Shown here: positions 3,820-21,557 of the stretch, piece by piece
Numbering within the stretch: position 1 is the stretch's first letter
How the letters are laid out: every line of letters begins with the position of its first letter
Assembly: GCA_902774995.1 (NCBI GenBank)
Contig: CACYKR010000035.1
Coordinates: 1-34,206, forward strand
Reading direction: 5' to 3'
Length of the DNA stretch: 34,206 nt
From: an uncultured Bacteroidales bacterium
GTDB lineage: Bacteria; Bacteroidota; Bacteroidia; Bacteroidales; Paludibacteraceae
The notes under the pieces: model-generated
What the model saw: the letters and a program-made list of their open reading frames with translations, nothing else
The model's database searches: none
What the model was told of the DNA's origin: nothing
Program-made: the position numbers and the translations under genes

Positions 3820-4335
3820 TTATGCACTTTGATCCGTTTTATTTACACGGAAAGTGAAGTATTTCTGTCCGAAATATGAGAAGGCGACGGTGATGAGTGT
3901 GATGATCATCTTGGATGGCGTAGGATACCACCCTATTATCTCGACGCATAGTTTGAGTCCGAAATAGTTTATAGCCAGGTTCACCGCCACAATAAGCATA
4001 TATCGTCCAAGCTGGCGGTAACTGTTGAGCCGGGAGGCAGTGAAGGTAACATATTTCTGTAGCCAGAATCCGGTGAGTAGCGTTATCGGAAAGACGATAC
4101 AGAGGGTAGCGATGTGCGGGGTGAGGCAGAGGTGAAAGGTGAAAGGTGAAAGGTGAAAGTACACCAGGTCATGTCCAATAACAAAGTTATACAGGAAGAA
4201 GTAAAGCAGCCAGTCGAGTACGAGGTTTCCGCCTCCGCAAGCGGCATATCGAAAGAGCTGTTCCGGCATCCATTTGGCGAACGGACGGTAAAAAAAATCA
4301 ATGATTTGTGTGATTATTTGCGCTAATTTGTGCAT
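3820..4335 (-). CDS. GtrA-like membrane protein
   Basis: A 171-residue integral membrane protein of the GtrA-like family, small four-helix proteins thought to flip or present undecaprenyl- or polyprenyl-linked sugars for polysaccharide modification. Four hydrophobic segments are visible (about 36-54, 74-92, 112-130 and 141-158). Conserved family features include FRYAACGGGNLVLDWLLY, the FWLQKYVTF motif and the C-terminal FGQKYFTFR. The first loop (residues about 58-70, YFHLSPFTFHL) is encoded by four exact 7-bp repeats at 4131-4158 and looks like an insertion. A promoter lies at 4441-4471, leaving a leader of about 100 nt. No glycosyltransferase partner is adjacent. Confidence 0.85.
   Translation of the reverse strand: MHKLAQIITQIIDFFYRPFAKWMPEQLFRYAACGGGNLVLDWLLYFFLYNFVIGHDLVYFHLSPFTFHLCLTPHIATLCIVFPITLLTGFWLQKYVTFTASRLNSYRQLGRYMLIVAVNLAINYFGLKLCVEIIGWYPTPSKMIITLITVAFSYFGQKYFTFRVNKTDQSA
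4131..4158. repeat. 7-bp tandem repeat (GGTGAAA) inside gtrA-like gene
   Basis: Four perfect GGTGAAA copies run from 4131 to 4158. They are read as FHLSPFTFH in the minus-strand protein, in the first extramembrane loop. Confidence 0.9.
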
Positions 4336-4350
4336 TTTATGCGATTTTTC

Positions 4351-4381
4351 TTGCGTAATTCAAAAAAAAGTAGTACTTTTG
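4351..4381 (+). promoter_or_regulatory. Bacteroides-type promoter for rsmA-corA
   Basis: TTGCGTAATTCA (from 4351) is followed after 20 nt by TACTTTTG (4374-4381). It fires rightward toward rsmA, with a leader of about 130 nt. It faces a second promoter firing leftward at 4441-4471, so the two 5' leaders would overlap antisense to each other. Confidence 0.8.
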
Positions 4382-4440
4382 CAGCCGCAAAAGCCGAGTG
4401 CTTGGATGATTTGCGCACATGCCGGTATTCAAATCGGCTA

Positions 4441-4471
4441 CAAAATTAGTAATAATTTTTTAATTGCGCAA
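4441..4471 (-). promoter_or_regulatory. Bacteroides-type promoter for gtrA-like gene
   Basis: On the minus strand TTGCGCAATTAA (TTG at 4471-4469) is followed after 20 nt by TAATTTTG (4448-4441). It fires leftward toward the gtrA-like start at 4335. Its sequence closely mirrors the opposite promoter at 4351-4381, including a trailing AGCCG, so the pair forms an imperfect inverted repeat. Confidence 0.75.
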
Positions 4472-4520
4472 ATATTTTGAACTAAAATTAACAACAGTAT
4501 GGACGATTATCACCCTGACA

Positions 4521-5306
4521 ATGCAACAAGTACATGCCAAAAAATTTCTGGGGCAGCACTTTTTGACGGACTTGACAGTCGCCCGCAGAATTGCTGAAAC
4601 CCTCACATCCGGCCGAACTATTGAAATCGGTCCCGGTATGGGTGTCCTCACCCAGTTTCTCCTTAAAAATCCTGATATACAACTCACGGCGATAGAAATC
4701 GACCGCGAGTCTGTGGCGTATCTCAAAGAGTGGTACCCGGAGTTGGATCTGGTGGAAGGTGATTTTCTGAAGATTGACCTGAACAAGATGATTCCCGAAG
4801 GCGAGTTCAACGTCATCGGCAATTATCCCTATAATATATCCAGCCAGATTTTCTTCAAAGTACTGGAATACAAAGACCGTATTCCCGTGTGCTCAGGTAT
4901 GATCCAGAAGGAAGTGGCGGAACGGATTGCTTCCAAGCCCGGCAAGAAGGCATACGGCATCCTGTCCGTGCTCCTGCAAGCCTATTATGATATAGAATAT
5001 CTGTTTACGGTAGATGAACATGTGTTCAACCCGCCTCCAAAAGTCAAGTCGGCTGTCATCCGCATGACGCGTAACAAACGACGACGGTTGGAGTGCGACG
5101 AAGCGCTCTTCAAGACCGTCGTCAAGACAGCTTTCAACCAGCGGCGAAAACAGATGAGAAACTCGCTACGGAGTTTAGTCGAAAGTCAAAAGTCGAAAGT
5201 CGAAAGCTCAGAACGATTAGAATGGTTCCTGACTCGAAGGCCGGAACAGCTATCTGTAGAAGAATTTATTGAACTAACAACTTTAATTGCAAGCCATCAT
5301 GTCTGA
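4521..5306 (+). CDS. rsmA: 16S rRNA dimethyladenosine transferase RsmA (KsgA)
   Basis: RsmA dimethylates the two adjacent adenines in the 3'-terminal loop of 16S rRNA during 30S maturation, using S-adenosylmethionine. The 261-residue protein shows FLGQHFL near the start, the SAM-binding motif EIGPGMGVLT (35-44), the catalytic NYPY (101-104) and the family motif VFNPPPKVKSAV (168-179). The start is set at the ATG of MQQVHAKKFLGQ, which matches the usual N-terminus; no upstream in-frame ATG exists. The C-terminal region contains VESQKSKVES (220-229), encoded by four 7-bp repeats at 5178-5205, between otherwise normal helices. Its stop overlaps the corA start by 8 nt, implying translational coupling. 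Confidence 0.95.
   Translation: MQQVHAKKFLGQHFLTDLTVARRIAETLTSGRTIEIGPGMGVLTQFLLKNPDIQLTAIEIDRESVAYLKEWYPELDLVEGDFLKIDLNKMIPEGEFNVIGNYPYNISSQIFFKVLEYKDRIPVCSGMIQKEVAERIASKPGKKAYGILSVLLQAYYDIEYLFTVDEHVFNPPPKVKSAVIRMTRNKRRRLECDEALFKTVVKTAFNQRRKQMRNSLRSLVESQKSKVESSERLEWFLTRRPEQLSVEEFIELTTLIASHHV
5178..5205. repeat. 7-bp tandem repeat (GTCGAAA) inside rsmA
   Basis: GTCGAAA, GTCAAAA, GTCGAAA and GTCGAAA run from 5178 to 5205 and are translated as VESQKSKVES. The same unit occurs in three other places in the window. Confidence 0.92.
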
Positions 5307-6249
5307 AATCAAGATATTCTATAAAGACAAGGATAAAATCAAGGTAGCCCGTACCATCTCTACGCTCAAAGAGCTGGACAAGAAAGATATTATCTGGATT
5401 GACCTGCTGGACGTGAGTGACAAGACGGAGGACACCTTGGAGGGCTTTCTGAAGATTGATATTCAGGAAGATGAAGAAATGGAAGAGATCGAGCTCTCGT
5501 CCCGTTATATCCAGACGGACGACAGCATCGTAGCAAACAGTAACTTCCTGAAATCCAATTTTGAGATGGAGCCGGTGAACTTCATCCTCAAAAACAGTAT
5601 TCTGGTCTCTATCCGCGACAACGAGTTGGACACTTTCAACGAGACGTTCATAAAAGTGTTTGTCAACACCCGTAATTTCCCGACGGGCTATCATGTGTTG
5701 GTAGCGCTATTCGAGACGCGTGTGGAAAAGGATGCCGACTTGATTGAGGATACCACGGATATGATTACCGAACTTTCCCAACGCATCAACGCCAACAGCG
5801 ATCACGTGGATGAAGATTTGCTTGTTCAAATCAAGGACCTGCAAGAAAAAGTGACTATCATCCGACAGAACATCATGGATAAACAGCGCGTTATCTCCAA
5901 TATCCTCAAATGCGATTTCTTCCCCGAAGAACTCTATCCGCGTCTGACGATGATTATCAAGGATATCAACTCGCTTTTTGACTATACCCGGTTCGGTTTC
6001 GACCGTCTGGACTACCTCCAGGATACCTTCCTCGGTTTGGTAAACATCGAGCAGAACAAGATAATCAAGATATTCACAGTCATCAATATCATCTTCCTGC
6101 CTCCTACACTTATCGGCAGCCTGTATGGTATGAACTTTGACTTCATGCCGGAACTCCACTGGCGGCTCGGATACCTGTTTGCACTCGGTCTGATGGTGCT
6201 ATCGGTAGTACTTATATTACTGATATTCAGACTGAAAAAATGGTTATAA
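5299..6249 (+). CDS. corA: CorA-family magnesium/cobalt transporter
   Basis: CorA is a pentameric inner-membrane channel for Mg2+ and Co2+. The 316-residue protein has the long acidic cytoplasmic funnel domain, a long helix region (about 140-250, with VHDxxDLxxK-like helical pattern), and two C-terminal transmembrane segments. The signature YGMN (Gly-Met-Asn at 277-279) follows TM1, and the C-terminus ends in a basic FRLKKWL, as expected. The start is the ATG at 5299 (MSEIKIFYKD), which overlaps the end of rsmA by 8 nt; an in-frame ATG at 5287 adds only MQAI. No Mg2+ riboswitch is seen. Confidence 0.93.
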   Translation: MSEIKIFYKDKDKIKVARTISTLKELDKKDIIWIDLLDVSDKTEDTLEGFLKIDIQEDEEMEEIELSSRYIQTDDSIVANSNFLKSNFEMEPVNFILKNSILVSIRDNELDTFNETFIKVFVNTRNFPTGYHVLVALFETRVEKDADLIEDTTDMITELSQRINANSDHVDEDLLVQIKDLQEKVTIIRQNIMDKQRVISNILKCDFFPEELYPRLTMIIKDINSLFDYTRFGFDRLDYLQDTFLGLVNIEQNKIIKIFTVINIIFLPPTLIGSLYGMNFDFMPELHWRLGYLFALGLMVLSVVLILLIFRLKKWL

Positions 6250-6409
6250 ACATATTGTTAACAATGTAAATGGTACCCGGTACAAAACTTGTTCCACATT
6301 GCATTTATCAAAACCATTCACATTCGCTTCACTATAAAAATTACTTGTAAATTATAATAAATCAAAGAATTATTTTATTTATCAACAATTTCTACATACA
6401 TATATATCC
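6250..6409. other. Intergenic leader of nadA
   Basis: This AT-rich stretch contains the palindromes TTGTTAACAA (6256-6265) and GTACCCGGTAC (around 6272-6283). No TAnnTTTG promoter was found, although nadA follows and must be expressed. A regulator site is possible but not supported further. Confidence 0.4.
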
Positions 6410-7354
6410 ATGGATTTAAAAAATAAAGAATATATTGATAATATTAAATCCTTAGCGAAGGAGAAGAAGGCAGTCATTTTTGCGCATTACTATACCCGTC
6501 CGGAAATACAAGAATGTGCCGATTTCATCGGAGATTCTCTCGCTCTTGCGCAACAGGCTACGCGCGTACAAGCGAACATATTAGTAATGTGCGGTGTTCA
6601 TTTCATGGGCGAGACGATGAAGATTCTCTGTCCGGAGAAGAAAGTGTTGATACCGGACATGAATGCCGGTTGTTCTCTGGCAGACAGCTGCAAGGCGGAA
6701 GATCTGGCTGCTTTCAAAGCGCAACACCCCGATCATATGGTGGTGAGTTACGTAAATACGAGTGCGGAGGTGAAGGCGCTGACGGATGTGGTGGTGACCA
6801 GTTCGAATGCCAAGAAGATAGTGGATCAGCTGCCCCAAGACGCGAAGATAATCTTCGGTCCTGATCACAACTTAGGCAGTTATATCAATTCTGTAACAGG
6901 CCGTAATATGCTTCTTTGGAACGGAGCATGTCATGTACACAGCCGTTTTTCCTTAGAGGCACTTCTTGAACTCAAAAAAGAGAACCCCGGTGTAGAGGTG
7001 CTGGCGCATCCCGAATGCAAAGCGCCTATTTTGGCGCAGAGCGACGTAATAGGTTCTACCCAGGCTCTGCTCCAGCATACCATCAAATCGCCCGCCAAAC
7101 GCTTTATAATAGCTACAGAGAGCGGTATTCTGCATGAGATGCAGAAGGCATGTCCAGAGAAAGAGTTTATTCCCGTTCCGCCGGAGGTGACGGAAGGAGT
7201 AGGATGCAGCTGCAACGAGTGCGAGTACATGCGGATGAATACTTTGGAGAAACTCTATGCGTGTCTGCATGACGAGCAGCCCGAAATGGTAGTTGACAAA
7301 GAGGTGGCGGAGAAAGCCGTGAGCTCTATCCAGCGGATGCTACAGATGAGCTAA
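6410..7354 (+). CDS. nadA: Quinolinate synthase NadA
   Basis: NadA is a [4Fe-4S] enzyme that condenses iminoaspartate (from NadB) with dihydroxyacetone phosphate to make quinolinate, a step of de novo NAD synthesis. The 314-residue protein shows FAHYYTRPEIQ near the N-terminus and cysteine candidates for the cluster: Cys88 in MNAGCSLAD, Cys174 in NGACHVH and the C-terminal GCSCNECEYMRMNT (Cys266/268/271). Conserved GPDHNLG (150-156) and ATESGILHEM (235-244) are present. NadB and NadC are not in the window. Its stop overlaps the stop of the convergent endonuclease gene by 4 nt, so the two genes share no terminator space. Confidence 0.95.
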   Translation: MDLKNKEYIDNIKSLAKEKKAVIFAHYYTRPEIQECADFIGDSLALAQQATRVQANILVMCGVHFMGETMKILCPEKKVLIPDMNAGCSLADSCKAEDLAAFKAQHPDHMVVSYVNTSAEVKALTDVVVTSSNAKKIVDQLPQDAKIIFGPDHNLGSYINSVTGRNMLLWNGACHVHSRFSLEALLELKKENPGVEVLAHPECKAPILAQSDVIGSTQALLQHTIKSPAKRFIIATESGILHEMQKACPEKEFIPVPPEVTEGVGCSCNECEYMRMNTLEKLYACLHDEQPEMVVDKEVAEKAVSSIQRMLQMS

Positions 7355-8379
7355 CGGAGCAACAGAACAACGGGCAGATGGTCCGAGAAACCGTTTTGGT
7401 AACGGAAACCGTTGAAGGTACGTTTTGGCTTCAGACCCAAGTATTTCTCATCCGTCTCTTGAATCCATTCAGCATCGTAAATATATACGGTGCTGATTTT
7501 TTGCAGGTTATCGGATGTGTAGAACTGGTCGAGACAAGTCCAGCGTCCCTGATACTTGTGCGTGCCATAGCTTTCGACTTTCGACTTTTGACTTTCTACT
7601 ACCATCCGGTTTATCAAACCTCTCAGGTCGTCTTTCGGTTCGCCGTTCATATCGCCCATGACGATGATTTTTGCGTCCGGGTGAACAGTATAAACGCTGT
7701 CTATAGCGGTTTGCAACACGTCTTTCACGGTCTTGCGTTTCCATTCGCTCTCTGCCGCTCCGTCGCGTTGGGAAGGCAGATGGCAAACAAACAGATGCAA
7801 AGTGTCCTTCTTGTCCACCTTCGCGCAGACATATAGGATGTCCCGGGTTACCAGTTTCTCCTCCCTTGAGGTGGTGAAGAGCTCTGCTCGATCGGACTGC
7901 CGGTGGCCGTCCGTAGAACTCCGGGGTGGGTTTTGTATGCTGAGTTTTTTAGTCCGAATGGTATCTACTCTACTCTTTTTATATATCATTGCGACGTCTA
8001 TTCCTCGCGGGTCTTTGCTCTCATAATGTACAAAATCATACTCGCACCGCCGCAATGTGTAGCATAATTTGCGCAGACAGGCAGCGTTCTCGACTTCCTG
8101 CAGACCCGCTATATCTACTCCATCCCACTCGCCTATATTCGTCAGCACACGGGCGATGTTCTCCACTTTCCGGTTATACCGCGAGTAGCTCCACCGCCGT
8201 TCGCCATCCGGCGTCCATTCCAAATCGTCTTTCGGTTCTCCTGCCACGCTGTCATGCGCAGGATGAAAGAGGTTTTCAACATTATAACTGACGATGCGTA
8301 ACGGCTCGGCAGATATAGTGTTTATACCTGCAAGAGCCATGATAATTATCCATGAAACGCTAAGAATAGCCGTTTTCAT
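7351..8379 (-). CDS. Secreted endonuclease/exonuclease/phosphatase family protein
   Basis: A 342-residue exported hydrolase of the EEP (DNase I-like) superfamily, which cleaves phosphodiester or phosphomonoester bonds with a divalent metal. A hydrophobic signal peptide ends near ISAEP (about residue 24). Motifs in order: VSYNVENLF (30-38), AGLQEVEN (91-98, metal-binding Glu), FVCHLPSQ (197-204), IVMGDMNGEP (239-248) and FSDHLPVV (331-338, catalytic Asp-His). Residues 261-270 (VESQKSKVES) are encoded by a 7-bp repeat at 7572-7599 that lies in a loop after the GDMN motif. It is 12 nt downstream of the lipoprotein esterase gene and probably co-transcribed with it. Confidence 0.88.
   Translation of the reverse strand: MKTAILSVSWIIIMALAGINTISAEPLRIVSYNVENLFHPAHDSVAGEPKDDLEWTPDGERRWSYSRYNRKVENIARVLTNIGEWDGVDIAGLQEVENAACLRKLCYTLRRCEYDFVHYESKDPRGIDVAMIYKKSRVDTIRTKKLSIQNPPRSSTDGHRQSDRAELFTTSREEKLVTRDILYVCAKVDKKDTLHLFVCHLPSQRDGAAESEWKRKTVKDVLQTAIDSVYTVHPDAKIIVMGDMNGEPKDDLRGLINRMVVESQKSKVESYGTHKYQGRWTCLDQFYTSDNLQKISTVYIYDAEWIQETDEKYLGLKPKRTFNGFRYQNGFSDHLPVVLLLR
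7572..7599. repeat. 7-bp tandem repeat (TTTCGAC) inside endonuclease gene
   Basis: TTTCGAC, TTTCGAC, TTTTGAC and TTTCTAC run from 7572 to 7599. On the gene's strand this is the GTCGAAA unit also found in rsmA and sufS, and it is read as VESQKSKVES. Confidence 0.9.
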
Positions 8380-8391
8380 CGGAGAAATAGG

Positions 8392-9177
8392 TTATTTGAA
8401 TATCTTAGGCAAGAACCGGCAGAGGTAGTCCTGCCAGTTGTCCCAGGTATGGCCTCCGGCGGATTCGTAATAGGTGTATTCGAGATGGTTTGCATCCAGC
8501 CAACGGCGGTATTCTTCGTTGAAACTATATAAAAAATCATCCTTGCCTATACCGATCCAGTAAAGCTTGGTGGTTTTCATCTGTTCTTTCACTTCCTCCT
8601 CCCAATGGTTGTATATAGGGTTAGGGTCTAATGGGAGGATAGCTGCCGAAAAAAGACCCACATACGCAAACTGTCCGTGCAGATGGTGGGATACGTGCAT
8701 AGTGTGAAATCCTCCCATGGAGAGACCGGCTATAGCGCGTTCGGATGGTTCGTTGCTAATAGGATATTCGGCTTCCGCTTCTGCCATAAACTGTGGAAAT
8801 AGCCTCTCCCACTCGCCTGTCATAGCATTGGCTTTCTCCTCGTCCGAAGTGGGTCTGGCGGGACAGTTGTCCGGCATGATAACCACCATCTCTTTGACCT
8901 CGCCGGCTTGCAGCAGCGAGTCCATGATCTCCACCAACCTACCCTGTTTGGTCCAGTCGTCCTCATTGCCGTACATTCCATGTTGCAGATAGAGGACAGG
9001 GTATTTGGTACTTGGTACTTTACGATAGTTCTCCGGCAGATAGACACAGCAGGGCGTGCCGTTCAATGTGTCGCGTACTACTGTTCCTGCGTGCAGAGGT
9101 TCAGCACCCTTTGGGCTGCAACCGGTGAAGATTGCTGCGGTCAAAAAAGCCGCAGCGATGTAGAGAATATGTTTCAT
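8392..9177 (-). CDS. Lipoprotein esterase, alpha/beta hydrolase (esterase D/feruloyl type)
   Basis: A 261-residue putative esterase, with a lipoprotein-type signal ending at Cys20 (IFTGC) that suggests envelope anchoring. The fold signature YPVLYLQHGMYG (59-70) and nucleophile elbow GLSMGG (Ser153) are clear. An acid candidate is Asp213/214 in GKDDFLY and the catalytic His is likely His243 in GGHTWDNW. These features match the putative-esterase family that includes feruloyl and acetyl-xylan esterases, so removal of acyl groups from plant polysaccharide is a reasonable guess but not shown. A short degenerate 7-bp repeat (GTATTTG, GTACTTG, GTACTTT at 9001-9021) encodes KVPSTKYP before the conserved core. 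A promoter is not obvious. Confidence 0.85.
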   Translation of the reverse strand: MKHILYIAAAFLTAAIFTGCSPKGAEPLHAGTVVRDTLNGTPCCVYLPENYRKVPSTKYPVLYLQHGMYGNEDDWTKQGRLVEIMDSLLQAGEVKEMVVIMPDNCPARPTSDEEKANAMTGEWERLFPQFMAEAEAEYPISNEPSERAIAGLSMGGFHTMHVSHHLHGQFAYVGLFSAAILPLDPNPIYNHWEEEVKEQMKTTKLYWIGIGKDDFLYSFNEEYRRWLDANHLEYTYYESAGGHTWDNWQDYLCRFLPKIFK

Positions 9178-9628: not shown

Positions 9629-9705
9629 GTATTTTAAGCGATTTGGGTAATTTTTCTTGTCTCGCTCTTCTCTCGGTTGTCTCTTGGTCATAGGTCGGTG
9701 GAAAG

Positions 9706-9789: not shown

Positions 9790-9916
9790 ATGGATAGGGT
9801 GAAAACGTTTACAACGCGAGCCGCAAAGCATACAAAACTCCTACAGCTCCGCAAACAACGCAAGATTGTTTAACTTGGGTTCTGGCAACAGACCCGCAAA
9901 TTTAGGAGATTTAATT

Positions 9917-10345
9917 ATGACACCTGCAATGTATCGTAGAAACGGATGGTTCCCGACAGTATTTGATGAGTTTCTGAACTCGGATTTAATGAACACCGCA
10001 ATTACAACCGCTCCGTCGGTTAACGTCAAAGAAACCGAGAAAGCGTATATCGTTGAACTGGCAGCGCCGGGCGTAAAGAAAGAGTACTGCCGCGTTCATG
10101 TCGATGAGGATCACAACCTGTGCGTCGCGATCGAGAACAAGTTCGAGCACAAAGAGGAAGACAAACACTCGCACTATCTGCGCCGCGAGTTCTCGTACAC
10201 CAACTATGAGCAGAAATACAGTCTGCCGGATGATGTGAACGAAGAAGAAATCAACGCCAAGGTAGAAGACGGTATTCTGACTATCGAACTGCCGAAACTC
10301 CAGAAAGTAGTCGGCAAGACGACGAAACAGATTGAGATCAAGTAG
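9917..10345 (+). CDS. Hsp20-family small heat-shock protein
   Basis: A 142-residue alpha-crystallin/Hsp20 chaperone that holds unfolding proteins for refolding by the ATP-dependent chaperones. The alpha-crystallin domain spans about residues 32-130: PSVNVKETEKAYIVELAAPGV at its start and the C-terminal signature VEDGILTIELPK, followed by a KQIEIK tail. The start is placed at the ATG at 9917 because a good Shine-Dalgarno (AGGAGA at 9904-9909) precedes it by 7 nt, which is unusual in this phylum; there is no earlier in-frame ATG. Upstream is a sigma-54-type promoter with phased repeats, unlike all other promoters in the window. A 7-bp repeat begins on the last base of its stop codon, followed by a strong terminator. 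Confidence 0.92.
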   Translation: MTPAMYRRNGWFPTVFDEFLNSDLMNTAITTAPSVNVKETEKAYIVELAAPGVKKEYCRVHVDEDHNLCVAIENKFEHKEEDKHSHYLRREFSYTNYEQKYSLPDDVNEEEINAKVEDGILTIELPKLQKVVGKTTKQIEIK

Positions 10346-10365
10346 TCGAAAGTCGAAAGACAAAA
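10345..10365. repeat. 7-bp tandem repeat (GTCGAAA) after hsp20 stop
   Basis: GTCGAAA, GTCGAAA and GACAAAA run from the last base of the hsp20 TAG stop to 10365. It is the same unit as in rsmA, sufS and the endonuclease gene, here outside coding sequence. Confidence 0.85.
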
Positions 10366-10366
10366 G

Positions 10367-10394
10367 AACGGCAACCGGAAGGCTGCCGTTTTTT
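10367..10394 (+). terminator. Rho-independent terminator of hsp20
   Basis: AACGGCA (10367-10373) and TGCCGTT (10384-10390) form a 7-bp stem with a 10-nt loop, followed by a T run. It separates hsp20 from the convergent rubrerythrin gene. Confidence 0.85.
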
Positions 10395-12564: not shown

Positions 12565-13812
12565 TTAGCTTAACATCATAATAGCTTTCTTCAGCGCTGC
12601 GATAAACGCATCCACATCGTCCTTGTCGTTGTACAGACCAAACGACACTCTCACCGTTCCCGGCACGCCCAGTTCGTCAATCAGCGGTTCGGCACAGTGG
12701 TGTCCCGTACGGACAGCCACGCCCTGCTGGTCCAGCAATGTGCCAATATCAAAAGGATGGATCAGCCATTCCGATGACTTTTGACTTTCGACTTTCGACT
12801 TTTGACTATTATACACATTAAAACTGATCACCCCTGCTTTGGGTTGACCGGCGGCATAGACATGTACGCCCTCGATGGCTGCTAACTGCTGCTCGCAGTA
12901 GTCCGTCAGTTCGCGCTCGTGCGTCTCAATGGTTTCCCAACCGATGGATTGCATGTACTCGACCGCTTTGTGCAGTGCATAAGAGCCCACGAAATTAGGG
13001 GTACCCGCTTCGAACTTATAGGGCAGGTCGTTATAGGTCGTACCCGACCAACGGACATGGTTGATCATCTCGCCTCCACCCTCATGCGGCGGCAGTTGTT
13101 CCAGCCACTCGCGCTTGCCGTACAGTACGCCGATACCCGTCGGACCGTACATCTTATGTCCCGAAAACGCCAGGAAGTCGCAATCCAATGCCTGCACATC
13201 GACCTGCCTATGCGGCACACTCTGCGCACCGTCAATGCACACCGGTATGTTGCGTTCGTGCGCGAGATGAATGATCTCCTCTATAGGATTGATGATTCCT
13301 AATACGTTGCTGACATGCGCCACGGAGACCAGTTTCGTCTTTTCGTTCAGAAGTCCCTTGAAAGCCTCTATGTCGAGCGTTTGATCCTCGCGCAAGGGAA
13401 TATGCCGCAGCACCGCTTTCTTGCGCTCACAGAGCATCTGCCACGGTACAATGTTGGAATGGTGCTCTACGGCAGATACGATAATCTCGTCGCCCTCGTG
13501 AATGAAAGCCTCACCGAAAGAGAAAGCCAAGGCATTGAGACTGTCCGTCGTGCCTTTCGTGAAGATGATCTCGTCGCTACTCTCCGCTCCGATGAACGCT
13601 GCCACAGCTTTTCGCGCCTCCTCATGTTTCATCGTTGCTACTTGGCTCAGATGATGCACGCCGCGGTGGATATTGCTGTTCCAATGGGTGTAAGCCTCCG
13701 TGATGGCATCTATCACCGCCTGCGGCTTCTGGCTCGTAGCGGCATTATCCAAGTACACCAAGGGGCGTCCGTGTACCTTCTCGTTCAATATAGGGAAATC
13801 TGTTCTGTTCAT
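12565..13812 (-). CDS. sufS: SufS-type cysteine desulfurase
   Basis: A PLP-dependent group II cysteine desulfurase (SufS/CsdA) that removes sulfur from cysteine for Fe-S cluster assembly. The 415-residue protein shows VYLDNAATSQKP (19-30), VEHHSNIVPW (115-124), the PLP lysine in FSGHKMYGP (Lys220) and the active-site cysteine in RTGHHCAEP (Cys373). Residues 335-347 contain NSQKSKVESQKSSEW, encoded by a 7-bp repeat at 12779-12806, placed between the FNVY strand and IHPFDIGTLL; it lengthens a loop before the catalytic cysteine segment. SufBCD genes are not adjacent. Its promoter is at 13871-13901. Confidence 0.95.
   Translation of the reverse strand: MNRTDFPILNEKVHGRPLVYLDNAATSQKPQAVIDAITEAYTHWNSNIHRGVHHLSQVATMKHEEARKAVAAFIGAESSDEIIFTKGTTDSLNALAFSFGEAFIHEGDEIIVSAVEHHSNIVPWQMLCERKKAVLRHIPLREDQTLDIEAFKGLLNEKTKLVSVAHVSNVLGIINPIEEIIHLAHERNIPVCIDGAQSVPHRQVDVQALDCDFLAFSGHKMYGPTGIGVLYGKREWLEQLPPHEGGGEMINHVRWSGTTYNDLPYKFEAGTPNFVGSYALHKAVEYMQSIGWETIETHERELTDYCEQQLAAIEGVHVYAAGQPKAGVISFNVYNSQKSKVESQKSSEWLIHPFDIGTLLDQQGVAVRTGHHCAEPLIDELGVPGTVRVSFGLYNDKDDVDAFIAALKKAIMMLS
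12779..12806. repeat. 7-bp tandem repeat (TTTCGAC) inside sufS
   Basis: TTTTGAC, TTTCGAC, TTTCGAC and TTTTGAC run from 12779 to 12806. On the coding strand this is GTCAAAA/GTCGAAA and reads SQKSKVESQKS. Confidence 0.92.
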
Positions 13813-15178: not shown

Positions 15179-18070
15179 TTATTTTATAAGTTTACCAATA
15201 ATCGAGTATTTCTTGCCATTAGGCATTAGGATGTATATATCACCGTTTTCTATATACTTAGCAGGTCTTTCTGTGGAGTTTTCATAAATATCCTCTATGC
15301 CTTGGCTCTTTGGTGTAGCTGTATAAGTAGCTGTGTATGTAGCATCTCCCGCTACGGGAACAATTTCCGGCGACCACTTATCAAAAGTATAGGTATATTT
15401 GTCGTCCTCTTCTTTTGTCGGAACACCTTTGGGGTAGATAGGCAAAGAGCCATATTCCCACAAACTAGCCGACAAAATACTATCGTCACTCATGAAAGTA
15501 ATCGTATATTTATTTAGTGTAGCATTGTATGTAGCTTTATAAGTAGCATCTTTGGTCACGGTTACAACGCGAGGCGACCAGCCTGCAAAAGTATATGAAT
15601 ACTGCGCATCGCCTGTTTTTTGAGGGTCTGCCGGAATAACCGGTGTTGCACCATATTCATATTCTTGCTCAGCGATAATAGTATCATTTTCATCGACAAA
15701 TCGGACAGTAAATATCTGAGGAGCGAAAATAGCAGTAATTGTTGTGTCCTGTGTCAATGTAATTGTTCGTGGATTCTCAGTTACACCGTCTGACCATTGT
15801 ACGAAATTGTTCCCCCTATAAGGGAATGCAGCAAGAGTTGAAGAACAAACATTTCCCCCCGAAGTAGTATAGCCTCTTAAAGAATCAGAAGAAGAGACAT
15901 TAAATTCATATATATTAGGTTGATATTGTATATTATATCTATTCCAATTTGACATTTGATATGTCTCTAAACTACCGCAAGGAACATAGACGGGAATAGT
16001 ATCAGCTGTAATAGGATGTACATTTGAAATAACAGGTGGTATTTCGGCATGTATTACAATTTCCATTGGCGCGAAAGAAGTCCCCAAACCCCAACGATCA
16101 AAAGCATATATACCAATTTCTGCTATATTACTACCTATTACTACGGAAGATAAAGTACGACACCACGCAAAAGCATACTCTCCTATACTTACGACACTAT
16201 TTGGAATTGAAATAGCGGATAATTTTTCACACTTATAAAATGCATTATTACCAATAAATTGAACCTTGTTAGGGATAACTATAGAATCCAATGAAACGCA
16301 ATAACTGAAACATGCGTCACCAATAGTTAAAACACTATCAGGGATATCAAATGTTTTAAATGGACAACTGGCAAATGCATGATTGCCAAGTGTTGTAATA
16401 CTTTGTGGTAAAGATACGGAGACTAATCCTGAGCCATAAAATGCACTATCACCAATGCTCGTTACAGTATTAGGAATTTCTATTGATTTCAATGCCTTAC
16501 AAGAATAAAACACCTCATCTTCAATATAAGACAATCTATGGGGCAAGATTGCTGATTCCAATTTTTTGCATTTATAAAATGCGCCGGCACCAAGGGTTTC
16601 TACACTTTCAGGAATAGTTACTGACGTAAAATTATTGCAATCTTGGAAAGCATGATCTCCTATATATTTCAAATTATTTGGTAACTCAAATGAAAGCAGC
16701 TTACTACAACCAGCGAAAGCGCGCCGACCTATAGAGTCAACAGTATTAGGGAAAGTAATTGATTTCAAATTAGAACATTCGCCAAAAACAGATGGGCTGA
16801 TACTGGTAACACTATTGGGAATAATAACGGAATCTAATTTAGAACAACCATAAAACGCAGCCGTGTCAATATGTGTTAAGCTATTAGGTAATTGCACTTT
16901 TGTTAGATTCTCACATTGAGAAAAAGCATTCCTTTTTATACTTTTTAATCCTTCTGGTAAATATAACGAATCTAATGGGCATTTACTAAATGACAGCTCT
17001 CCTATAGTATCGAGGCTTCTAGGGAATATTATATTTTTAAGATTAGAGCATCCAAAGAATGCCCAATTACCTATTCGCGTAACACCATTTAACAATGTTA
17101 CGGATGTGATATTTTTTAAATAACTGAATGTATACTCTCCAACACCTTTCACATTACTTCCAATAATAAATTCTTTCACTTGCTGACCGAAGATAGCACC
17201 GATATTAGAACCTCCAAGCCCAGCAAATACTGAATATGTTTTATTAACTAATGAATCTGAGTTTAAGGTAACTGATATCAAACTATCGCAGCCGCTAAAC
17301 GCATTCTTTTCTATATTTACAACACTTTTTCCAATGCTTATAGAATGTAGCTTCTTGCAGTTCAAAAAAGTATTTTCCTTGATAGAAACTACGCTATCAG
17401 GTATCACAATGGATGTGAGATTACTACAGTTCGAAAAAGCTTTGCTTTCTATGCTAACTACTTTATCTGGTAATGTTAAAGATGTGAGATTTTTACAGTT
17501 TGAAAAAGCTCCGCCCCCTATATATAGGGTATTCTCTTTTATTGTATAATTTGTTAGCGTAGTATCAGTAACTTCAATCAAATATGTTCCTGCATAACGA
17601 ATACTATCAATTACAGGCAAACTGCTACAACCCTCAAAAATACTGTTCCCAAAACTCTTGATAGAAGTTGGAAATACCACTGTGTTCAAACTAATACAAT
17701 TTATAAAAGCATTATAACCTATAGTAGCAATACTATTGGGAATGACTACAGATGTGAGTTTCCCACAATTAGCAAAGGCTTCTCTATCTATGCTTGTAAT
17801 GGTATATGTTATCCCATTATTATCAATAGAGGTCGGTATCACAAGGCTAGTGGTATCGCTGTCCCAACAACTACCATAAACAACGCGTTTTCTTTCATAA
17901 TAATAACCATTATAAAAGTCCATTTGTTCAACGTTCTTGTAAGTGACTTTTGCGGTTTGGCTTACAGAGTCTAACTCGTAATACAATACTCCAATTTTGA
18001 CTTTTTGAGCAAATGCTGTTCCCACGCTGGTCATGAGCGCAAGACAAATAATTAAGATTTTTCTTTTCAT
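15179..18070 (-). CDS. BspA-like leucine-rich-repeat surface protein with InlB B-type repeats
   Basis: A 963-residue exported protein. A signal peptide (MKRKILIICLALMTSVG...AFAQ) is followed by more than twenty BspA/TpLRR-type leucine-rich repeats of about 23 residues (consensus like SVVIPNSVTSIGxxAFxxC, roughly 60-690). Three Listeria-Bacteroides (InlB B-type) repeats follow at about 745-925, recognisable by FVQWSDG, YTFAGWSP and YTFDKWSP. The C-terminus, KYIENGDIYILMPNGKKYSIIG, resembles the Por/type IX secretion tail common in Bacteroidales surface proteins. BspA-type proteins bind fibronectin, mucin or other hosts' surfaces; the ligand here is unknown. The gene is markedly AT-richer than its flanks, and repeats of this kind recombine readily. 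A leucine-rich protein precedes the PD-(D/E)XK gene by 6 nt. Confidence 0.92.
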   Translation of the reverse strand: MKRKILIICLALMTSVGTAFAQKVKIGVLYYELDSVSQTAKVTYKNVEQMDFYNGYYYERKRVVYGSCWDSDTTSLVIPTSIDNNGITYTITSIDREAFANCGKLTSVVIPNSIATIGYNAFINCISLNTVVFPTSIKSFGNSIFEGCSSLPVIDSIRYAGTYLIEVTDTTLTNYTIKENTLYIGGGAFSNCKNLTSLTLPDKVVSIESKAFSNCSNLTSIVIPDSVVSIKENTFLNCKKLHSISIGKSVVNIEKNAFSGCDSLISVTLNSDSLVNKTYSVFAGLGGSNIGAIFGQQVKEFIIGSNVKGVGEYTFSYLKNITSVTLLNGVTRIGNWAFFGCSNLKNIIFPRSLDTIGELSFSKCPLDSLYLPEGLKSIKRNAFSQCENLTKVQLPNSLTHIDTAAFYGCSKLDSVIIPNSVTSISPSVFGECSNLKSITFPNTVDSIGRRAFAGCSKLLSFELPNNLKYIGDHAFQDCNNFTSVTIPESVETLGAGAFYKCKKLESAILPHRLSYIEDEVFYSCKALKSIEIPNTVTSIGDSAFYGSGLVSVSLPQSITTLGNHAFASCPFKTFDIPDSVLTIGDACFSYCVSLDSIVIPNKVQFIGNNAFYKCEKLSAISIPNSVVSIGEYAFAWCRTLSSVVIGSNIAEIGIYAFDRWGLGTSFAPMEIVIHAEIPPVISNVHPITADTIPVYVPCGSLETYQMSNWNRYNIQYQPNIYEFNVSSSDSLRGYTTSGGNVCSSTLAAFPYRGNNFVQWSDGVTENPRTITLTQDTTITAIFAPQIFTVRFVDENDTIIAEQEYEYGATPVIPADPQKTGDAQYSYTFAGWSPRVVTVTKDATYKATYNATLNKYTITFMSDDSILSASLWEYGSLPIYPKGVPTKEEDDKYTYTFDKWSPEIVPVAGDATYTATYTATPKSQGIEDIYENSTERPAKYIENGDIYILMPNGKKYSIIGKLIK

Positions 18071-18128
18071 ATTACTATTATTTTGAGGTTAATTATAAAC
18101 AAATACAACAAAAGCGCGAACATTATTC

Positions 18129-18344
18129 ACGCTTATTCTCCAAATAGAGGTTCCTGCAAGACCCTTCAACCAAGAATAAACAATAACGTCCACGCCCGAT
18201 ATGCATAACCCTCCCGCCCTATGAGGGGCGCGAACGGATATTAACATACCCACGAGGACGCTTATTGCACCATCTTGTTTCGGGGTTGAAATTTTGCAGG
18301 ATTCCTATTTGCCAAAACAAGCGTCAATAAACGCCTTTTATTTC
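18129..18344 (+). ncRNA. Candidate structured RNA, 6S-like extended hairpin
   Basis: The two ends of a ~196-nt segment pair in five successive blocks: ACGCTT (18129) with AAGCGT (18319), CAAATAG (18141) with CTATTTG (18305), TCCTGCAA (18152) with TTGCAGGA (18294), TTCAACC (18165) with GGTTGAA (18284), and AATAACGTCC (18182) with GGACGcTTATT (18256). A 10/17-nt asymmetric internal loop separates the last two, and a CGCCC / GGGCG hairpin caps the fold. A weak terminator-like GCGT-caataa-ACGC followed by CTTTTATTT lies at 18321-18344 on the plus strand. An irregular rod with a central bubble is the topology of 6S RNA; that identity is inference. No clear promoter is visible. On the minus strand it would be the leader of the BspA-like gene. 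Confidence 0.45.
18324..18342. repeat. 19-bp direct repeat, copy 1 (3' side of rhuM)
   Basis: TCAATAAACGCCTTTTATT occurs here and again, identically and in the same orientation, at 19342-19360. The two copies bracket the RhuM-family gene, 1018 bp apart. Confidence 0.9.
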
Positions 18345-18349
18345 AATTC

Positions 18350-18460
18350 TATGTTTGTGCTGATTCCTCGTAGTGGGGACTACTCGGGCACTGCACTCGA
18401 TATGCGTTTCATCGCATATCTTCACCTGTTTAACGTCAGTGAGTGACGCACCGTTTTTTA
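18350..18460 (+). ncRNA. Possible small RNA with three hairpins
   Basis: TATGTTTG at 18350-18357 matches the -7 element, but no TTG lies at the proper -33 distance. Downstream are three consecutive hairpins: GTAGT-gggg-ACTAC (18370-18383), GATATGCG-tttcat-CGCATATC (18399-18420) and CGTCA-gtgag-TGACG (18434-18448). TTTTTT follows at 18454-18459, five nt beyond the last stem. It may instead be the 3' untranslated region of rhuM on the other strand. Confidence 0.3.
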
Positions 18461-18483
18461 CGCTGTCGGCGGCAGCGGTATCA

Positions 18484-19338
18484 TTATTTAACCTCTTTCA
18501 GTATCGTTTCAGGGTTTGTGCCCATAAGGGTGATCGCTGACAGCTTCTTGCCCATATCTTTAAGCGAGTGACCGCAATGGTAAAGGCTGTCATCTATTAT
18601 CAGCCATCTGTCATGCGAGGGCGTTGACCATTTATGCGTATTCACGGGTTGCACACCTTTGGTGGTATTGTGCATGTCGCGCAAAGACTTATGTTCGCTA
18701 TCCGAATAGATGTCTGCCGTCACTCCTTTTGCACGCACATCCAACATCTCAAACGTAGCAGCATCTATATACGCATCAATGATAATAACACGTTTTTGCG
18801 CTGTCTTAATCAAACTCTCCAATAGTGCTCGTGCAGCAAAGAACTCACCTTCAAAGAAAACCTGTTCTATCGGCGGTAATGATGTTCGCACAAAGAAATC
18901 AATCTTCTCTTCGTGGTCTGCCAATTGTTTCTGTTGTAAGGCTAATTGATTCTCTATATTTAATAAACGTTGATTAACGGCATAGCCTTTGAGCATGTAG
19001 TCTTTAAGCACTTTATTTGCCCATTGACGGAATTGTGTGCCTCGGATAGAATTGACGCGATAACCAACGGATATAATCATGTCTAAGTTATAAAAGGGAA
19101 CTTCACGCCTCACTTGCCTGTTTCCTTCTATACGAACCTGTGCAATTTTTGCACATGTTGCTGCCTCCTCCAATTCGTGTGTCTTGTATATATTATGGAT
19201 GTGCCTTAAGACAGACGTTCTGTCTGTACCAAACAATTCTGCCATCTGTTGCTGGTTCAGCCAAACAGTCTCATCTTGCAGCCGCACCTCCAATTGGATA
19301 GTGGCATCAGGCTGATATAATACTATCTCGTCCTTCAT
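18484..19338 (-). CDS. RhuM-family protein with PLD-like C-terminal segment
   Basis: A 284-residue protein of the virulence-associated RhuM family. The N-terminal part carries the family's hallmarks: TIQLEVRLQDETVWLNQQQMAELF (5'-half of a winged-helix-like DNA-binding region), TDRTSVLRHI and NLDMIISVGYRVNSIRGTQFRQWA (about 86-109). A central coiled stretch (125-145) leads to a C-terminal region with SHDRWLIIDD and GHSLKDMGKKLSAI, resembling a single phospholipase-D/HKD half-site. RhuM genes are scattered among pathogenicity islands, mobile elements and restriction loci; the molecular function is not established. Identical 19-bp repeats lie just upstream of its ATG and 140 nt past its stop. 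Confidence 0.85.
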   Translation of the reverse strand: MKDEIVLYQPDATIQLEVRLQDETVWLNQQQMAELFGTDRTSVLRHIHNIYKTHELEEAATCAKIAQVRIEGNRQVRREVPFYNLDMIISVGYRVNSIRGTQFRQWANKVLKDYMLKGYAVNQRLLNIENQLALQQKQLADHEEKIDFFVRTSLPPIEQVFFEGEFFAARALLESLIKTAQKRVIIIDAYIDAATFEMLDVRAKGVTADIYSDSEHKSLRDMHNTTKGVQPVNTHKWSTPSHDRWLIIDDSLYHCGHSLKDMGKKLSAITLMGTNPETILKEVK

Positions 19339-19341
19339 TTA

Positions 19342-19360
19342 TCAATAAACGCCTTTTATT
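19342..19360. repeat. 19-bp direct repeat, copy 2 (5' side of rhuM)
   Basis: TCAATAAACGCCTTTTATT, identical to 18324-18342. It ends 3 nt before the rhuM ATG on the minus strand, so it occupies the ribosome-binding region of that gene. Confidence 0.9.
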
Positions 19361-19389
19361 ATGTCCTCCTTTTTACATCGTGAGGGGAT

Positions 19390-19413
19390 GCTTGCTGTTT
19401 TACGTCGGCAAGC
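19390..19413 (-). other. Hairpin between toxin relic and rhuM
   Basis: GCTTGCTG (19390-19397) pairs with CGGCAAGC (19406-19413) with one G-U wobble. It lies 16 nt beyond the stop of the toxin relic and could be its old terminator, though a T run is missing. Confidence 0.4.
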
Positions 19414-19428
19414 GACGAGGGGTATATG

Positions 19429-19563
19429 CTATTTGTAGTGCCCGTAAGCGGAGATTACTAAAACAAGCACTTCTTTATCATGGATTTCGTAAACTAATCT
19501 ATGTTCACGGTTTATGCGTCGTGACCATGTTTCGTTATCGAAAGAACTATATACATACTCGTT
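19429..19563 (-). pseudogene. YoeB/Txe-family toxin relic (C-terminal part only)
   Basis: A frame ending at the TAG at 19429-19431 reads NEYVYSSFDNETWSRRINREHR, then LVYEIHDKEVLVLVISAYGHYK. WSRRINREHRLVYE and the terminal GHY are the conserved C-terminal region of the YoeB/Txe family of ribosome-dependent mRNA interferases. The N-terminal half is absent: the frame overlaps the end of the antitoxin gene out of phase and reaches a stop without any ATG, GTG or TTG in frame. It is therefore a truncated remnant that retains the C-terminal catalytic residues but not the fold. It sits where an intact toxin would, directly after its antitoxin. Confidence 0.75.
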
Positions 19564-19804
19564 CCAGGAATTGAGCCATCGTTTCGTTAGGAAGTTTCTC
19601 TACATAATGCCCCGCAGCAGCTTGAGCACTGGAATGAGCTAATTTGGCTCTGAACTCCTCCTCTGTCATCTCTACTTTAGGTTCTTGGACGCGTGGAGTA
19701 CGAATAGTAGTGATCTTCCATCCCATATTACGTGAGTGGCGCCGCAAGAAAGCCGCGTCAGCACTGGGCAGAGTGATTTGTAATGTTTTCATTGTTGCTT
19801 CCAT
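19547..19804 (-). CDS. Antitoxin-like small protein
   Basis: An 85-residue protein, MEATMKTLQITLPSADAAFL..., with a short beta-strand opening then a basic helix (RRHSRNMGWKIT) and an acidic, Glu-rich tail (EPKVEMTEEEFRAKL). This pattern fits the antitoxins that precede RelE/YoeB-type toxins in Bacteroidales; the truncated toxin immediately downstream supports the reading. The start is set at the ATG ending at 19804; the ATG ending at 19792 (MKTLQITL) is as likely. A strong promoter sits at 19847-19876, so it is probably expressed, as a solitary antitoxin or as an anti-addiction remnant. Confidence 0.72.
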   Translation of the reverse strand: MEATMKTLQITLPSADAAFLRRHSRNMGWKITTIRTPRVQEPKVEMTEEEFRAKLAHSSAQAAAGHYVEKLPNETMAQFLERVCI

Positions 19805-19846
19805 AATTTTCGCCTCCGTAGAAGTTGTTAAATTGATTTTGCGCTG

Positions 19847-19876
19847 CAAAATTACACAAAAAAAACGACATACGCA
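19847..19876 (-). promoter_or_regulatory. Bacteroides-type promoter for antitoxin (and rhuM)
   Basis: Minus strand TTGCGTATGTCG (TTG at 19876-19874), then after 19 nt TAATTTTG (19854-19847). It precedes the antitoxin and could also read through into rhuM. Confidence 0.82.
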
Positions 19877-19932
19877 AGAGTGTATGCCATTTTTGAGCTA
19901 TTTTCTTGTTTCCTACCTTAGGTAGGGGAGAA

Positions 19933-20472
19933 TCAGAGCGTGTTGATATATTCTACGGTGTTGCCCACGGAGGCGAGGTATTGCTGAAAAGCTTCCCGGC
20001 TGATGACTACTGTTCCGCGGCAGTCATTGGGGTGAAAAGAGAGCGTCTCAGCATCCTTCAGACGGCTGTCGAGGAACAGTATCACGTGGTGTTCCGTGTC
20101 GTTGATAAGCCCGAAAGGACTGACGCTGCCCGGCTCTAATCCCAGGTACCGCATCATCCTCTCCGGAGAGGCGAAAGACAGTTTGCCGGGAGCTTTCTTG
20201 CCCTGCGAGACTAGGATATCTTTCAGCCAGTGCTCGATGTCATGGATAGCCAGGTCGTAGTCACAGGGGAAACAAATCAGGTAATGCTGGTCGCCCTTGT
20301 GGTTGCGCATGAAGATGTTCTTGCAATGCACGGAACCGTCGTCGTGCCACCACCGTTTGGCTTCCTCGATGGTCTTGCCCTCGGGGTGGTTGTAGGTAGT
20401 GAAAGGAATACCGTGTTCCTCCAGATAGCGCAGCACTTTCTCCTGCCGCTCGGAAATAATCTCGTAGGTCAT
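19933..20472 (-). CDS. YbaK/ProX-type aminoacyl-tRNA deacylase
   Basis: A 179-residue trans-editing enzyme of the YbaK/ProRS-INS superfamily, which hydrolyses mischarged tRNA such as Ala-tRNA(Pro) or Cys-tRNA(Pro). Seen: the lysine in VHCKNIFM (Lys51), GSVSPFGLIND (115-125) and FHPND (146-150), positions typical of the ProX-type prolyl-tRNA deacylase. The start is the ATG ending at 20472 (MTYEIISERQEKVL); the longer frame upstream overlaps the neighbour's C-terminus and is not coding. It is 14 nt downstream of the MBL hydrolase gene and is the last gene of the long mre-led run. A CCTACC-tta-GGTAGG hairpin lies just past its stop. Confidence 0.9.
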   Translation of the reverse strand: MTYEIISERQEKVLRYLEEHGIPFTTYNHPEGKTIEEAKRWWHDDGSVHCKNIFMRNHKGDQHYLICFPCDYDLAIHDIEHWLKDILVSQGKKAPGKLSFASPERMMRYLGLEPGSVSPFGLINDTEHHVILFLDSRLKDAETLSFHPNDCRGTVVISREAFQQYLASVGNTVEYINTL

Positions 20473-20486
20473 AGTTGTTCTATTTT

Positions 20487-21557
20487 TTACCACTCGATGA
20501 CCGCGCCGATAGGCCGGTCGAGTAGGGTGATGTGGTCTTTCCGGGCTATGGAGCGGGCCACGGAGTCGGGTTCGTTCCACGCATGCGGAGCCAGCGAGAA
20601 CTTGTCATGGTGGACGGTGATATACTGCTTGGCCTGCAGGTCTGTCATCGCCTTCTCCAAGTCTTCGGGCATCATATGGATAAATGCCCAGTTGGGGTTG
20701 TACTGGCCGTTCTCCATAATCGCCAGGTCCACTTCTCCATACTGCTCACGGATGCGCTTGAAACGGTCGTCATACCCTCCGTCTCCGCCGATATAGACCT
20801 TGCGTCCCCGGCTCTCCAGCAGGAACGACGCCCAGAGAGTCTCGTTGGCGCCGAAGAGGCGGTTGGAGAAATGGCGGGTAGGCAGGCAGGTGATATGTAT
20901 ATCTGATTGGGTATTTGATATTTGATATTTGACATTGGATATTTGGGTATGGTCATACCAGTTCATCTCGGTGATGATCTCCGGCGAATAGCCCCAGAGG
21001 GTGAGGTATTCGGCGATGCCGAGCGGACAGACAGCGTGCTTCACTCGCGGTCGCAGGTCACGCAGCGTAGCGTAGTCCAGATGGTCCCAGTGTTCATGCG
21101 TAATCACCAGTAAATCAATATCCGGCATCATATCCGGCGTGTAGTAGTCGGTGCCCGGAAAAGGCTTCATCATCACCGAGGCGGGGAACTCCATCTTCAG
21201 CAGCGGATCAACCAGAACGGTCCTGCCGCCGAGGGTGAAGAGGTACGACGAGTGGCCGAACCAGATAAACCAATCGCTCTCTTTGCTGAGGCTCCGTATA
21301 TCTGTCCGAACGATCTCCAGCGGTTTCTTGGGCACCCGCTCGTGCGTTCTGTCCGTCAGGAATTTCCACATGGCCGCCACTCCCGAAGAGCGTTCTCCGG
21401 TGAACTGCGGGGTAGGGACTTCGTTCCGGAAAAGCCGTCCGGTATGGCCGAAAGGATGGGGACCGAAAGCAGGGTGGTGCAGCACCGCCCAGGCAGTCAG
21501 GAACAGGCCTGCCAAAATCCCGGTAATAATCAGTATGTGTATCATTCGTCCGGTCAT
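20487..21557 (-). CDS. MBL-fold metallohydrolase (UlaG/NAPE-PLD-like)
   Basis: A 356-residue membrane-anchored metallo-beta-lactamase-fold hydrolase. An N-terminal hydrophobic segment (about 5-26) probably anchors it. Metal-binding motifs: THEHWDHLD (153-160, His154, His156, Asp158, His159), a later His in LPTRHFSNR (His229), GGDGGYDD (Asp259) and VHHDKF (His316/317). This pattern and the GHSSYLF strand (101-107) resemble the N-acyl-phosphatidylethanolamine phospholipase D-like branch; substrate unknown. Residues 204-219 (TQISNVKYQISNTQSD) are encoded by a 7-bp repeat at 20905-20946 that lengthens a surface loop. The gap to gldB is 3 nt. Confidence 0.88.
   Translation of the reverse strand: MTGRMIHILIITGILAGLFLTAWAVLHHPAFGPHPFGHTGRLFRNEVPTPQFTGERSSGVAAMWKFLTDRTHERVPKKPLEIVRTDIRSLSKESDWFIWFGHSSYLFTLGGRTVLVDPLLKMEFPASVMMKPFPGTDYYTPDMMPDIDLLVITHEHWDHLDYATLRDLRPRVKHAVCPLGIAEYLTLWGYSPEIITEMNWYDHTQISNVKYQISNTQSDIHITCLPTRHFSNRLFGANETLWASFLLESRGRKVYIGGDGGYDDRFKRIREQYGEVDLAIMENGQYNPNWAFIHMMPEDLEKAMTDLQAKQYITVHHDKFSLAPHAWNEPDSVARSIARKDHITLLDRPIGAVIEW
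20905..20946. repeat. 7-bp tandem repeat (TATTTGA) inside MBL gene
   Basis: GATTGGG, TATTTGA, TATTTGA, TATTTGA, CATTGGA and TATTTGG follow in register from 20905 to 20946, six units of which three are identical. They read as ISNVKYQISNTQS on the coding strand. Confidence 0.88.

Follow-up and report, generated by a model that had tools for sequence, protein, structure and literature searches.

Heptamer repeat arrays with fixed end phases in genes and spacers of an uncultured Paludibacteraceae bacterium

Heptamer arrays in the window, the genome and its relatives

The stretch of DNA analysed here (the window) comprises 34,206 bases (48% GC) of contig CACYKR010000035.1 from an uncultured Paludibacteraceae bacterium (assembly GCA_902774995.1) and carries tandem repeat arrays, mainly of period 7, inside genes and in spacers. 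The genome to which it belongs (the own genome, G000) amounts to 2.18 Mb in 114 contigs and is 87% complete. The nearest named relatives of the window are metagenome-assembled Bacteroidales, several of them labelled Paludibacteraceae and many derived from the rumen. The main new observation is that the arrays end in fixed phases. The initial annotation of this DNA lacked it, and likewise did not mention that composite cassettes recur, that one repeat family can give way to another at the same site, or that hairpins and other short repeats share these sites. The array positions given in that annotation hold, the one at 22497-22532 being weak; the arrays at 9000-9020 (period 7) and 1753-1789 (8-bp CTAGTGGA) are additions to its list. 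The features are as follows (G148 is a related genome):

1722..1744, no strand: TTGTTAT-type array of period 7 in a spacer that lies upstream of the aldolase gene; identical in G148
1753..1789, no strand: period-8 array of CTAGTGGA in that spacer as well; identical in G148
4130..4159, minus strand: four perfect GGTGAAA units inside gtrA (gene 3820-4335); the sense strand reads CTTTCAC, peptide FHLSPFTFH
5177..5206, plus strand: four GTC(A/G)AAA units inside rsmA (4464-5306); peptide VESQKSKVES; TTA stands before the array and GC after it
7571..7600, minus strand: three exact GTC(A/G)AAA units and one degenerate unit inside an Exo_endo_phos_3 gene (7351-8379)
9000..9020, minus strand: three GGTACTT units inside an esterase-like gene (8392-9177; the gene label is a reading of the open reading frame, ORF)
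10344..10367, plus strand: two exact GTC(A/G)AAA units and one degenerate unit at the end of the hsp20 ORF (9866-10345)
12775..12807, minus strand: four GTC(A/G)AAA units inside sufS (12565-13812); peptide NSQKSKVESQKS between VISFN and HPFDIGTLLD
13505..13515, minus strand: second sufS site, empty in the window and occupied in G148 by an in-frame AATTAAA/AATTACG array (L098 10302-10328)
20905..20945, minus strand: TATTTGA array within the gene of a metallo-beta-lactamase-fold protein (20487-21557), encoding ISNVKYQISN
22497..22532, no strand: weak intergenic TCAATCA period-7 array (score 11); one base different in G148

The product of the window rsmA has an RrnaAD domain. The array at hsp20 had been placed right after the stop codon; it is present, but its first two bases are the final two of the stop codon TAG, and only two of its units are exact.

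The excess of period 7 is real and far above chance. Periods 2-30 were scored in the window against 40 dinucleotide shuffles. At a score of at least 12 the window holds six period-7 arrays, compared with none in every one of the shuffles; period 14 is represented by three arrays, periods 5, 8, 16, 21 and 24 by one each, and the rest by none. The genome-wide count that the initial annotation had proposed as a check was made on an own sample of 434 kb, composed of the window and twenty stretches of 20 kb each, and at the same score it gave 46 arrays of period 7 against 15 for the next period, 11. Then follow period 22 (10 arrays), periods 9, 12, 14 and 15 (7 each) and period 8 (6); periods 3-6 have at most two arrays each (period 6 two, period 5 one). 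In 80 named loci (1.35 Mb, score at least 14) the order is similar, with 82 arrays of period 7, 46 of period 11, 26 of period 8 and 12 of period 14. Three consecutive GTC(A/G)AAA units (the family is also written GTCRAAA) match the own genome 55 times, i.e. at 35 arrays after merging by position, and the reversed pattern, which served as the control, 0 times. Numerous related heptamer units coexist with this one in the own genome and in the named loci. As a separate observation, the window has an 11-bp repeat (TCGCGGTCATA) at 3766-3794, downstream of gtrA, whose copy number in G148 differs by one; period 11 is the second most enriched.

At a score of at least 14 the density of period-7 arrays per 100 kb is 7.8 in the own sample (400 kb), 21.1 in G007 (28 kb), 9.1 in G104 (44 kb) and 2.3 in G051 (43 kb); in the small control genomes arrays of period 6 or less were filtered out. 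Outside the family no such array was found in 80 kb of G407 (another family of the same order) or in 50 kb of E. coli, and G466, from another family of the class, has 2.5 per 100 kb (80 kb). The triple GTC(A/G)AAA occurs in 34 of the 61 genus genomes, with 0 to 72 matches per genome, and in 14 of 295 other genomes of the phylum sample, 12 of which belong to a single genus of this class that was represented by 17 members.

Ends, composite cassettes and sites of the arrays

The GTCRAAA arrays mostly stop in one phase on the right. Over all loci, with orthologous sites counted apart, 57 of 66 arrays break there exactly one base past their last full unit, and 38 of 66 break on the left one base ahead of the first unit, while random phase predicts a fraction of 0.144. 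The common form of an array is TA-(GTCRAAA)2-4 followed by GC or GA. An artefact of orthologous sites was considered as the source of this effect and rejected, since the effect persists when such sites are collapsed (right 38/45, left 25/45) and in the own genome taken alone (right 26/29, left 18/29; null 0.144). In all eight antisense arrays a G directly follows the last unit, so the fixed right end is not imposed by the protein. Other families behave in a related way: among pairs of non-GTC arrays with the same unit, sites collapsed, the start phase is shared in 41/118 and the end phase in 38/118 (uncollapsed, 86/269 and 90/269), and 2000 simulations of phase sharing gave a mean of 0.145 and a maximum of 0.322. 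Inspection by eye of the 25-nt flanks of 30 arrays revealed no common inverted repeat, and no dyad symmetry was seen in arrays of 2-7 units.

Some arrays are composite. A hairpin joined to a GTC unit, GGGACAG..CTGTCGAAAG, was met in eight contexts among the loci examined, including one MurD-like gene and the rsmA array of G148, where the hairpin piece stands in for one unit. It is preceded by GTCRAAAGTCRAAAC in six of the eight contexts, two of which (L229 and L232) look orthologous. By exact search the composite is present in 4 of 61 genus genomes, with three copies in the own genome. A longer core with CGGCTTCAGCCG was found in four contexts, each time with heptamer units on both sides; one of these is the SufS loop of G018. 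Hairpins and other short repeats also occupy the same sites as heptamer arrays. The RsmA of G148 (L081) has a second in-frame insertion, a CCCTCCC..GGGAGGG hairpin with a peptide of about PPQPSLQGREK, at a place where the window (4601-4640) is shorter. Near the N-terminus of the ORF at window 23168-23668 stands PPNLPSREG, which looks like the peptide of a GC-rich hairpin repeat inserted there. Further interspersed families were noticed in the own-sample stretches L061-L080, namely AATGTAC mixed with AAAGGGAC, hairpins of CCCCCTCTCAGAGGGGGAG and, close to A/T runs, TGCAAAGGTAC motifs.

Judging from alignments with homologues, the in-gene arrays are insertions. In comparison with the best solved homologue a gap of 14 residues lies at the array in SufS and one of 5 residues in RsmA. 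A gene resembling CCA-adding/poly A polymerases (L029:3-1280, G000 contig 34) carries three GTC(A/G)AAA arrays. In the alignment with entry 4wby two of them coincide with gaps, one of 10 and one of 8 residues, and the third lies beyond the aligned stretch. Other hosts are RimO-like (UPF0004, Radical_SAM, TRAM_2), MurE-like and MurD-like Mur ligase and 4-alpha-glucanotransferase genes; the names RimO, MurE and CCA are readings of domain hits. The earlier suggestion that the arrays lie in loops or ends of proteins is supported for several of them. The SufS loop was read by pattern in 58 of the 80 named loci and missed in 22. In the loci closest to the window it is filled by differing heptamer families (GTCRAAA, AATCACC, TCAACTC, AATCACA, ATCAGAA and others), and in more distant ones mostly by short forms such as NVYNGEELIHPFD. 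Comparison with homologues had been proposed as a check in the initial annotation; the relatives do not share the residues of this loop and carry another repeat family or none. Chance or ancestral sequence, which could account for the weak array at 22497-22532 alone, is refuted by the dinucleotide shuffles and by the homologues without the residues, and its probability is negligible.

The occupants of one site turn over. Orthologous sites were compared by eye in G148, G070 and G073, where 15 of 20 own array sites were readable (two had no match and three were not in the query), giving 35 comparisons, with some further ones left out. The site holds a GTC-type repeat in the same register in 16 of these (once as a single unit, in some cases with degenerate units or a hairpin), another repeat family in 12 and no clear repeat in 7. 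The Exo_endo_phos_3 site is of GTC type in G148 and G093 and has a different sequence in G173, G069 and G151; the hsp20 site contains other repeats or hairpins in G148, G070 and G073 and a GTC-like array in G075; and the site at 9000-9020 differs in five of five relatives with both flanks located. The units of the array at 20905-20945 are changed in G148 despite 96-98% identity of the 150-nt flanks. Beyond the three indels that fall into window arrays, two further ones between the window and G148 are repeat insertions in the latter, the AATTAAA/AATTACG array of sufS and the hairpin of rsmA, both in frame.

Reading frame and explanations of the arrays

It had been claimed that the repeat is read in the same frame in three genes of the window and yields a near-identical peptide. 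The similarity of the peptides stands; the common frame does not, as RsmA reads GTC as a codon while SufS and the endonuclease gene use a different phase. The frame is in any case uninformative: 7 is coprime to 3, therefore all three frames of a strand give an identical cyclic heptapeptide, and the 7-bp period alone suffices to produce near-identical peptides in unrelated proteins from DNA. For annotation and alignment this is a trap, since the likeness of such peptides here has its origin in DNA and not in homology. Selection for a peptide or a frame as the cause of the common peptide was ruled out by this arithmetic and by the identical right end of the antisense arrays. Nor does the idea that three units, equal to 21 bp, keep the frame hold as a rule: four units are the commonest number (23 of 54 sense in-gene GTC(A/G)AAA arrays).

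A census of GTCRAAA arrays with at least two units (65 arrays, orthologous sites counted apart, the locus L195 coming from outside the genus) placed 62 within long ORFs, 54 of them in sense and 8 in antisense orientation, and three in no ORF. Among in-gene arrays of all families in the own sample the sense strand is free of stops in 17 of 21, and the antisense strand contains a stop triplet in 19 of 21. The bias is weaker in the named loci (28/49 and 40/49, respectively). A heptamer without stops can be read through whichever frame it falls in, so that a cassette would be tolerable in any frame if its net length preserves the frame. The sense orientation of 54/65 arrays and the similar, polar peptides might also suggest that the arrays persist because they are useful, be it through a loop peptide, a site of RNA regulation or a site where a protein binds. 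The sense bias, however, fits stop avoidance, the antisense arrays have the same right end, families replace each other at one site and many relatives have no array; such a function is highly improbable.

The proposal of the initial annotation that some process makes or spreads 7-bp repeats in this genome is supported by the period excess, by one unit at 35 places and by the insertions. The most probable course (with a probability of about 0.6) is that heptamer cassettes are copied from one locus to another and afterwards undergo slippage and mutation where they stand. The cassette, about 23-32 bp long, would consist mostly of three or four GTC(A/G)AAA units with an A before and a G behind them, and would be copied as one piece into new chromosomal sites, where its copy number and unit sequence would subsequently alter. 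Template switching, exchange resembling gene conversion or transposition in trans may be the route between loci. The insertions that survive purifying selection would be those in loops, at ends and in spacers, oriented so as to avoid stops.

A competing explanation is that local replication slippage in steps of 7 nt, a length favoured by the polymerase as proposed by Mrazek and colleagues, builds each array from a short seed. According to papers citing Mrazek (2007), heptamers predominate among the long simple repeats of most genomes examined, and slippage in steps set by the footprint of the polymerase was put forward as the reason. The same papers deem units in multiples of three the likeliest inside genes, whereas period 7 is common inside genes here. 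Copy number does differ among our arrays, and in gtrA of G148 two neighbouring units share one identical G-to-T change. Slippage fits poorly with one unit standing at 35 places of the own genome when the reversed pattern is missing from it. Because composite cassettes recur at unrelated loci, slippage at each place is hard to credit; these cassettes and the fixed ends make slippage alone insufficient, and cassette copying with slippage fits them. Slippage as the whole explanation is therefore unlikely.

Several observations weigh against the copying of cassettes. At site 13 a single unit in G073 corresponds to four in the own genome, which is a local change of copy number such as slippage would give. 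Relative to G148 substitutions affect 27 of 331 array columns (8.2%) and 1292 of 25737 columns overall (5.0%), only a moderate excess, and 3 of the 21 indels of at least 3 bp fall into the window arrays (0.9% of the window), two of them at the hsp20 site. The flanks of the compared relatives are 71-100% identical, for which reason several steps may separate the states. End phases are less strict in the non-GTC families than in GTCRAAA. Taken over all families, arrays are depleted in genes, with 21 of 46 inside, 13 at edges and 12 outside, although about 90% of the own sample is called coding (gene calls by a home-made caller). The reversed control has one match each in 4 of 61 genus genomes and was also found in 11 of 296 genomes of the phylum sample, so the GTC-unit signal is less specific outside this genus. 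Heptamer arrays may be under-assembled in metagenome-assembled genomes. No copying event from donor to target was directly seen, and neither an enzyme nor a target-site duplication was identified, there being no clean empty sites at which to judge duplication.

RAYT transposases are thought to mobilise REP elements, and a RAYT-like HUH (Y1) transposase might move the arrays in trans in the same manner. The own genome has one such gene (L238:1289-2401, G000 C1; PF01797, 25.5 bits at a cut-off of 23), whose protein contains the HUH-type motif MPDHVHI. Over the 61 genus genomes matches to this protein correlate with GTCRAAA matches (Spearman 0.41, p 0.001, without phylogenetic correction), and arrays are present in 29 of 42 genomes with the protein and 5 of 19 without it (Fisher p 0.0025, kinship uncorrected). 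On the other side, G029 has 37 GTCRAAA matches and no transposase copy was found in it (82% complete), the arrays are not palindromic, no heptamer array lies within the 1.5-kb flanks of the own gene, and on its contig one has to go about 10 kb to reach the nearest of the GTCRAAA arrays listed. On either side of the genes L238, L240 and L241 stand hairpins of a separate type (TTGTCCC..GGGACAA and variants). Because its gene adjoins these other hairpins, this transposase as the mover of the arrays is quite improbable. The flanks of L238:1289-2401 contain TTGTCCC-GATGA-GGGACAA hairpins together with a 91-bp direct repeat, and variant hairpins accompany the copies L240 and L241.

Two other enzymes were considered and rejected. 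No reverse transcriptase (RVT_1) was detected in the own assembly, which is 87% complete, and over the 61 genomes it is uncorrelated with arrays (8/14 with, 26/47 without); DDE_Tnp_1 was likewise not found in the own assembly and is uncorrelated with arrays (5/12 with, 29/49 without).

A bolder form of cassette copying would regard the arrays as self-spreading protein-coding DNA: non-palindromic heptamer cassettes with defined ends, stop-free in every frame, that might be moved as units, possibly with hairpin modules, by an HUH enzyme in trans, and that would refill the same loops of essential genes throughout the genus. This is possible, though doubtful.

Relation to known repeats and minor observations

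Heptameric simple sequence repeats go by the name STRR. Heptameric repeats are described as GGGAATC in Xanthomonas, GGGGA(C/T)T in Nostoc and the heptamers of Calothrix (PMC4692102). Like these, our arrays show the period-7 excess and one unit dispersed at many loci, with four units preferred and variable length. The published units are, in contrast, G-rich, and in Xanthomonas and Nostoc they are over-represented in non-coding DNA and under-represented in coding sequence (PMC4692102). Here the units are richer in AT, many families coexist and the end phase is fixed; as to position, all families together are enriched outside genes in the own sample, but of the 65 GTC(A/G)AAA arrays 62 are found within long ORFs.

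TAACTGA direct repeats of Beggiatoaceae, Cyanobacteria and five Bacteroidetes (MacGregor 2015, PMC4679880) are likewise heptamers of patchy distribution, some of them in ORFs and mainly at protein ends. Their orientation is limited by stops in three frames, and MacGregor had already made the stop argument for TAACTGA. They stand mostly just upstream of start codons, and BOGUAY seldom has related heptamers in repeated form (PMC4679880); in the present DNA many related families coexist. The unit TAACTGA is absent from the units of 65 own-sample arrays and 82 named-locus arrays.

Rickettsia palindromic elements (RPEs; PMC10969869) resemble the arrays as short repeated DNA that stands in frame in unrelated genes and adds a peptide, and such in-frame insertion into unrelated genes is found here. 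RPEs are, however, palindromic and about 150 bp long, compared with about 23-32 bp without dyad symmetry here, although hairpin pieces use the same sites. BrickBuilt of Porphyromonas gingivalis (PMC4596501) is also a tandem repeat of Bacteroidales spread as a bounded element. This combination of a minisatellite and a MITE (miniature inverted-repeat transposable element) differs from the heptamer arrays in its 23-bp unit, its inverted-repeat ends and its always intergenic position. As in REP/RAYT systems, there are dispersed short repeats here, possibly spread in trans, and a RAYT-like gene, but the hairpins flanking that gene are another sequence. On the features compared, the arrays thus belong in part to the heptameric repeats and are neither RPEs nor REP elements.

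No fixed-end heptamers inside genes were found in the literature searched, subscription journals being mostly outside its reach, and the heptamer peptide strings gave no match in a literature search. The accessible literature on heptamers offers no firm mechanism, polymerase-linked slippage being a published guess, and the fixed ends and cassettes point to a copying step that can be searched for. The genus, with 178 species genomes, allows gain, loss and replacement to be traced at one loop. The arrays would also be a route by which selfish or neutral DNA lengthens housekeeping proteins by short segments.

Two minor features of the window remain. A 92-base stretch at 18266-18358 has no counterpart in G148, and a 23S rRNA intervening-sequence protein gene (PF05635) lies at 240-650.

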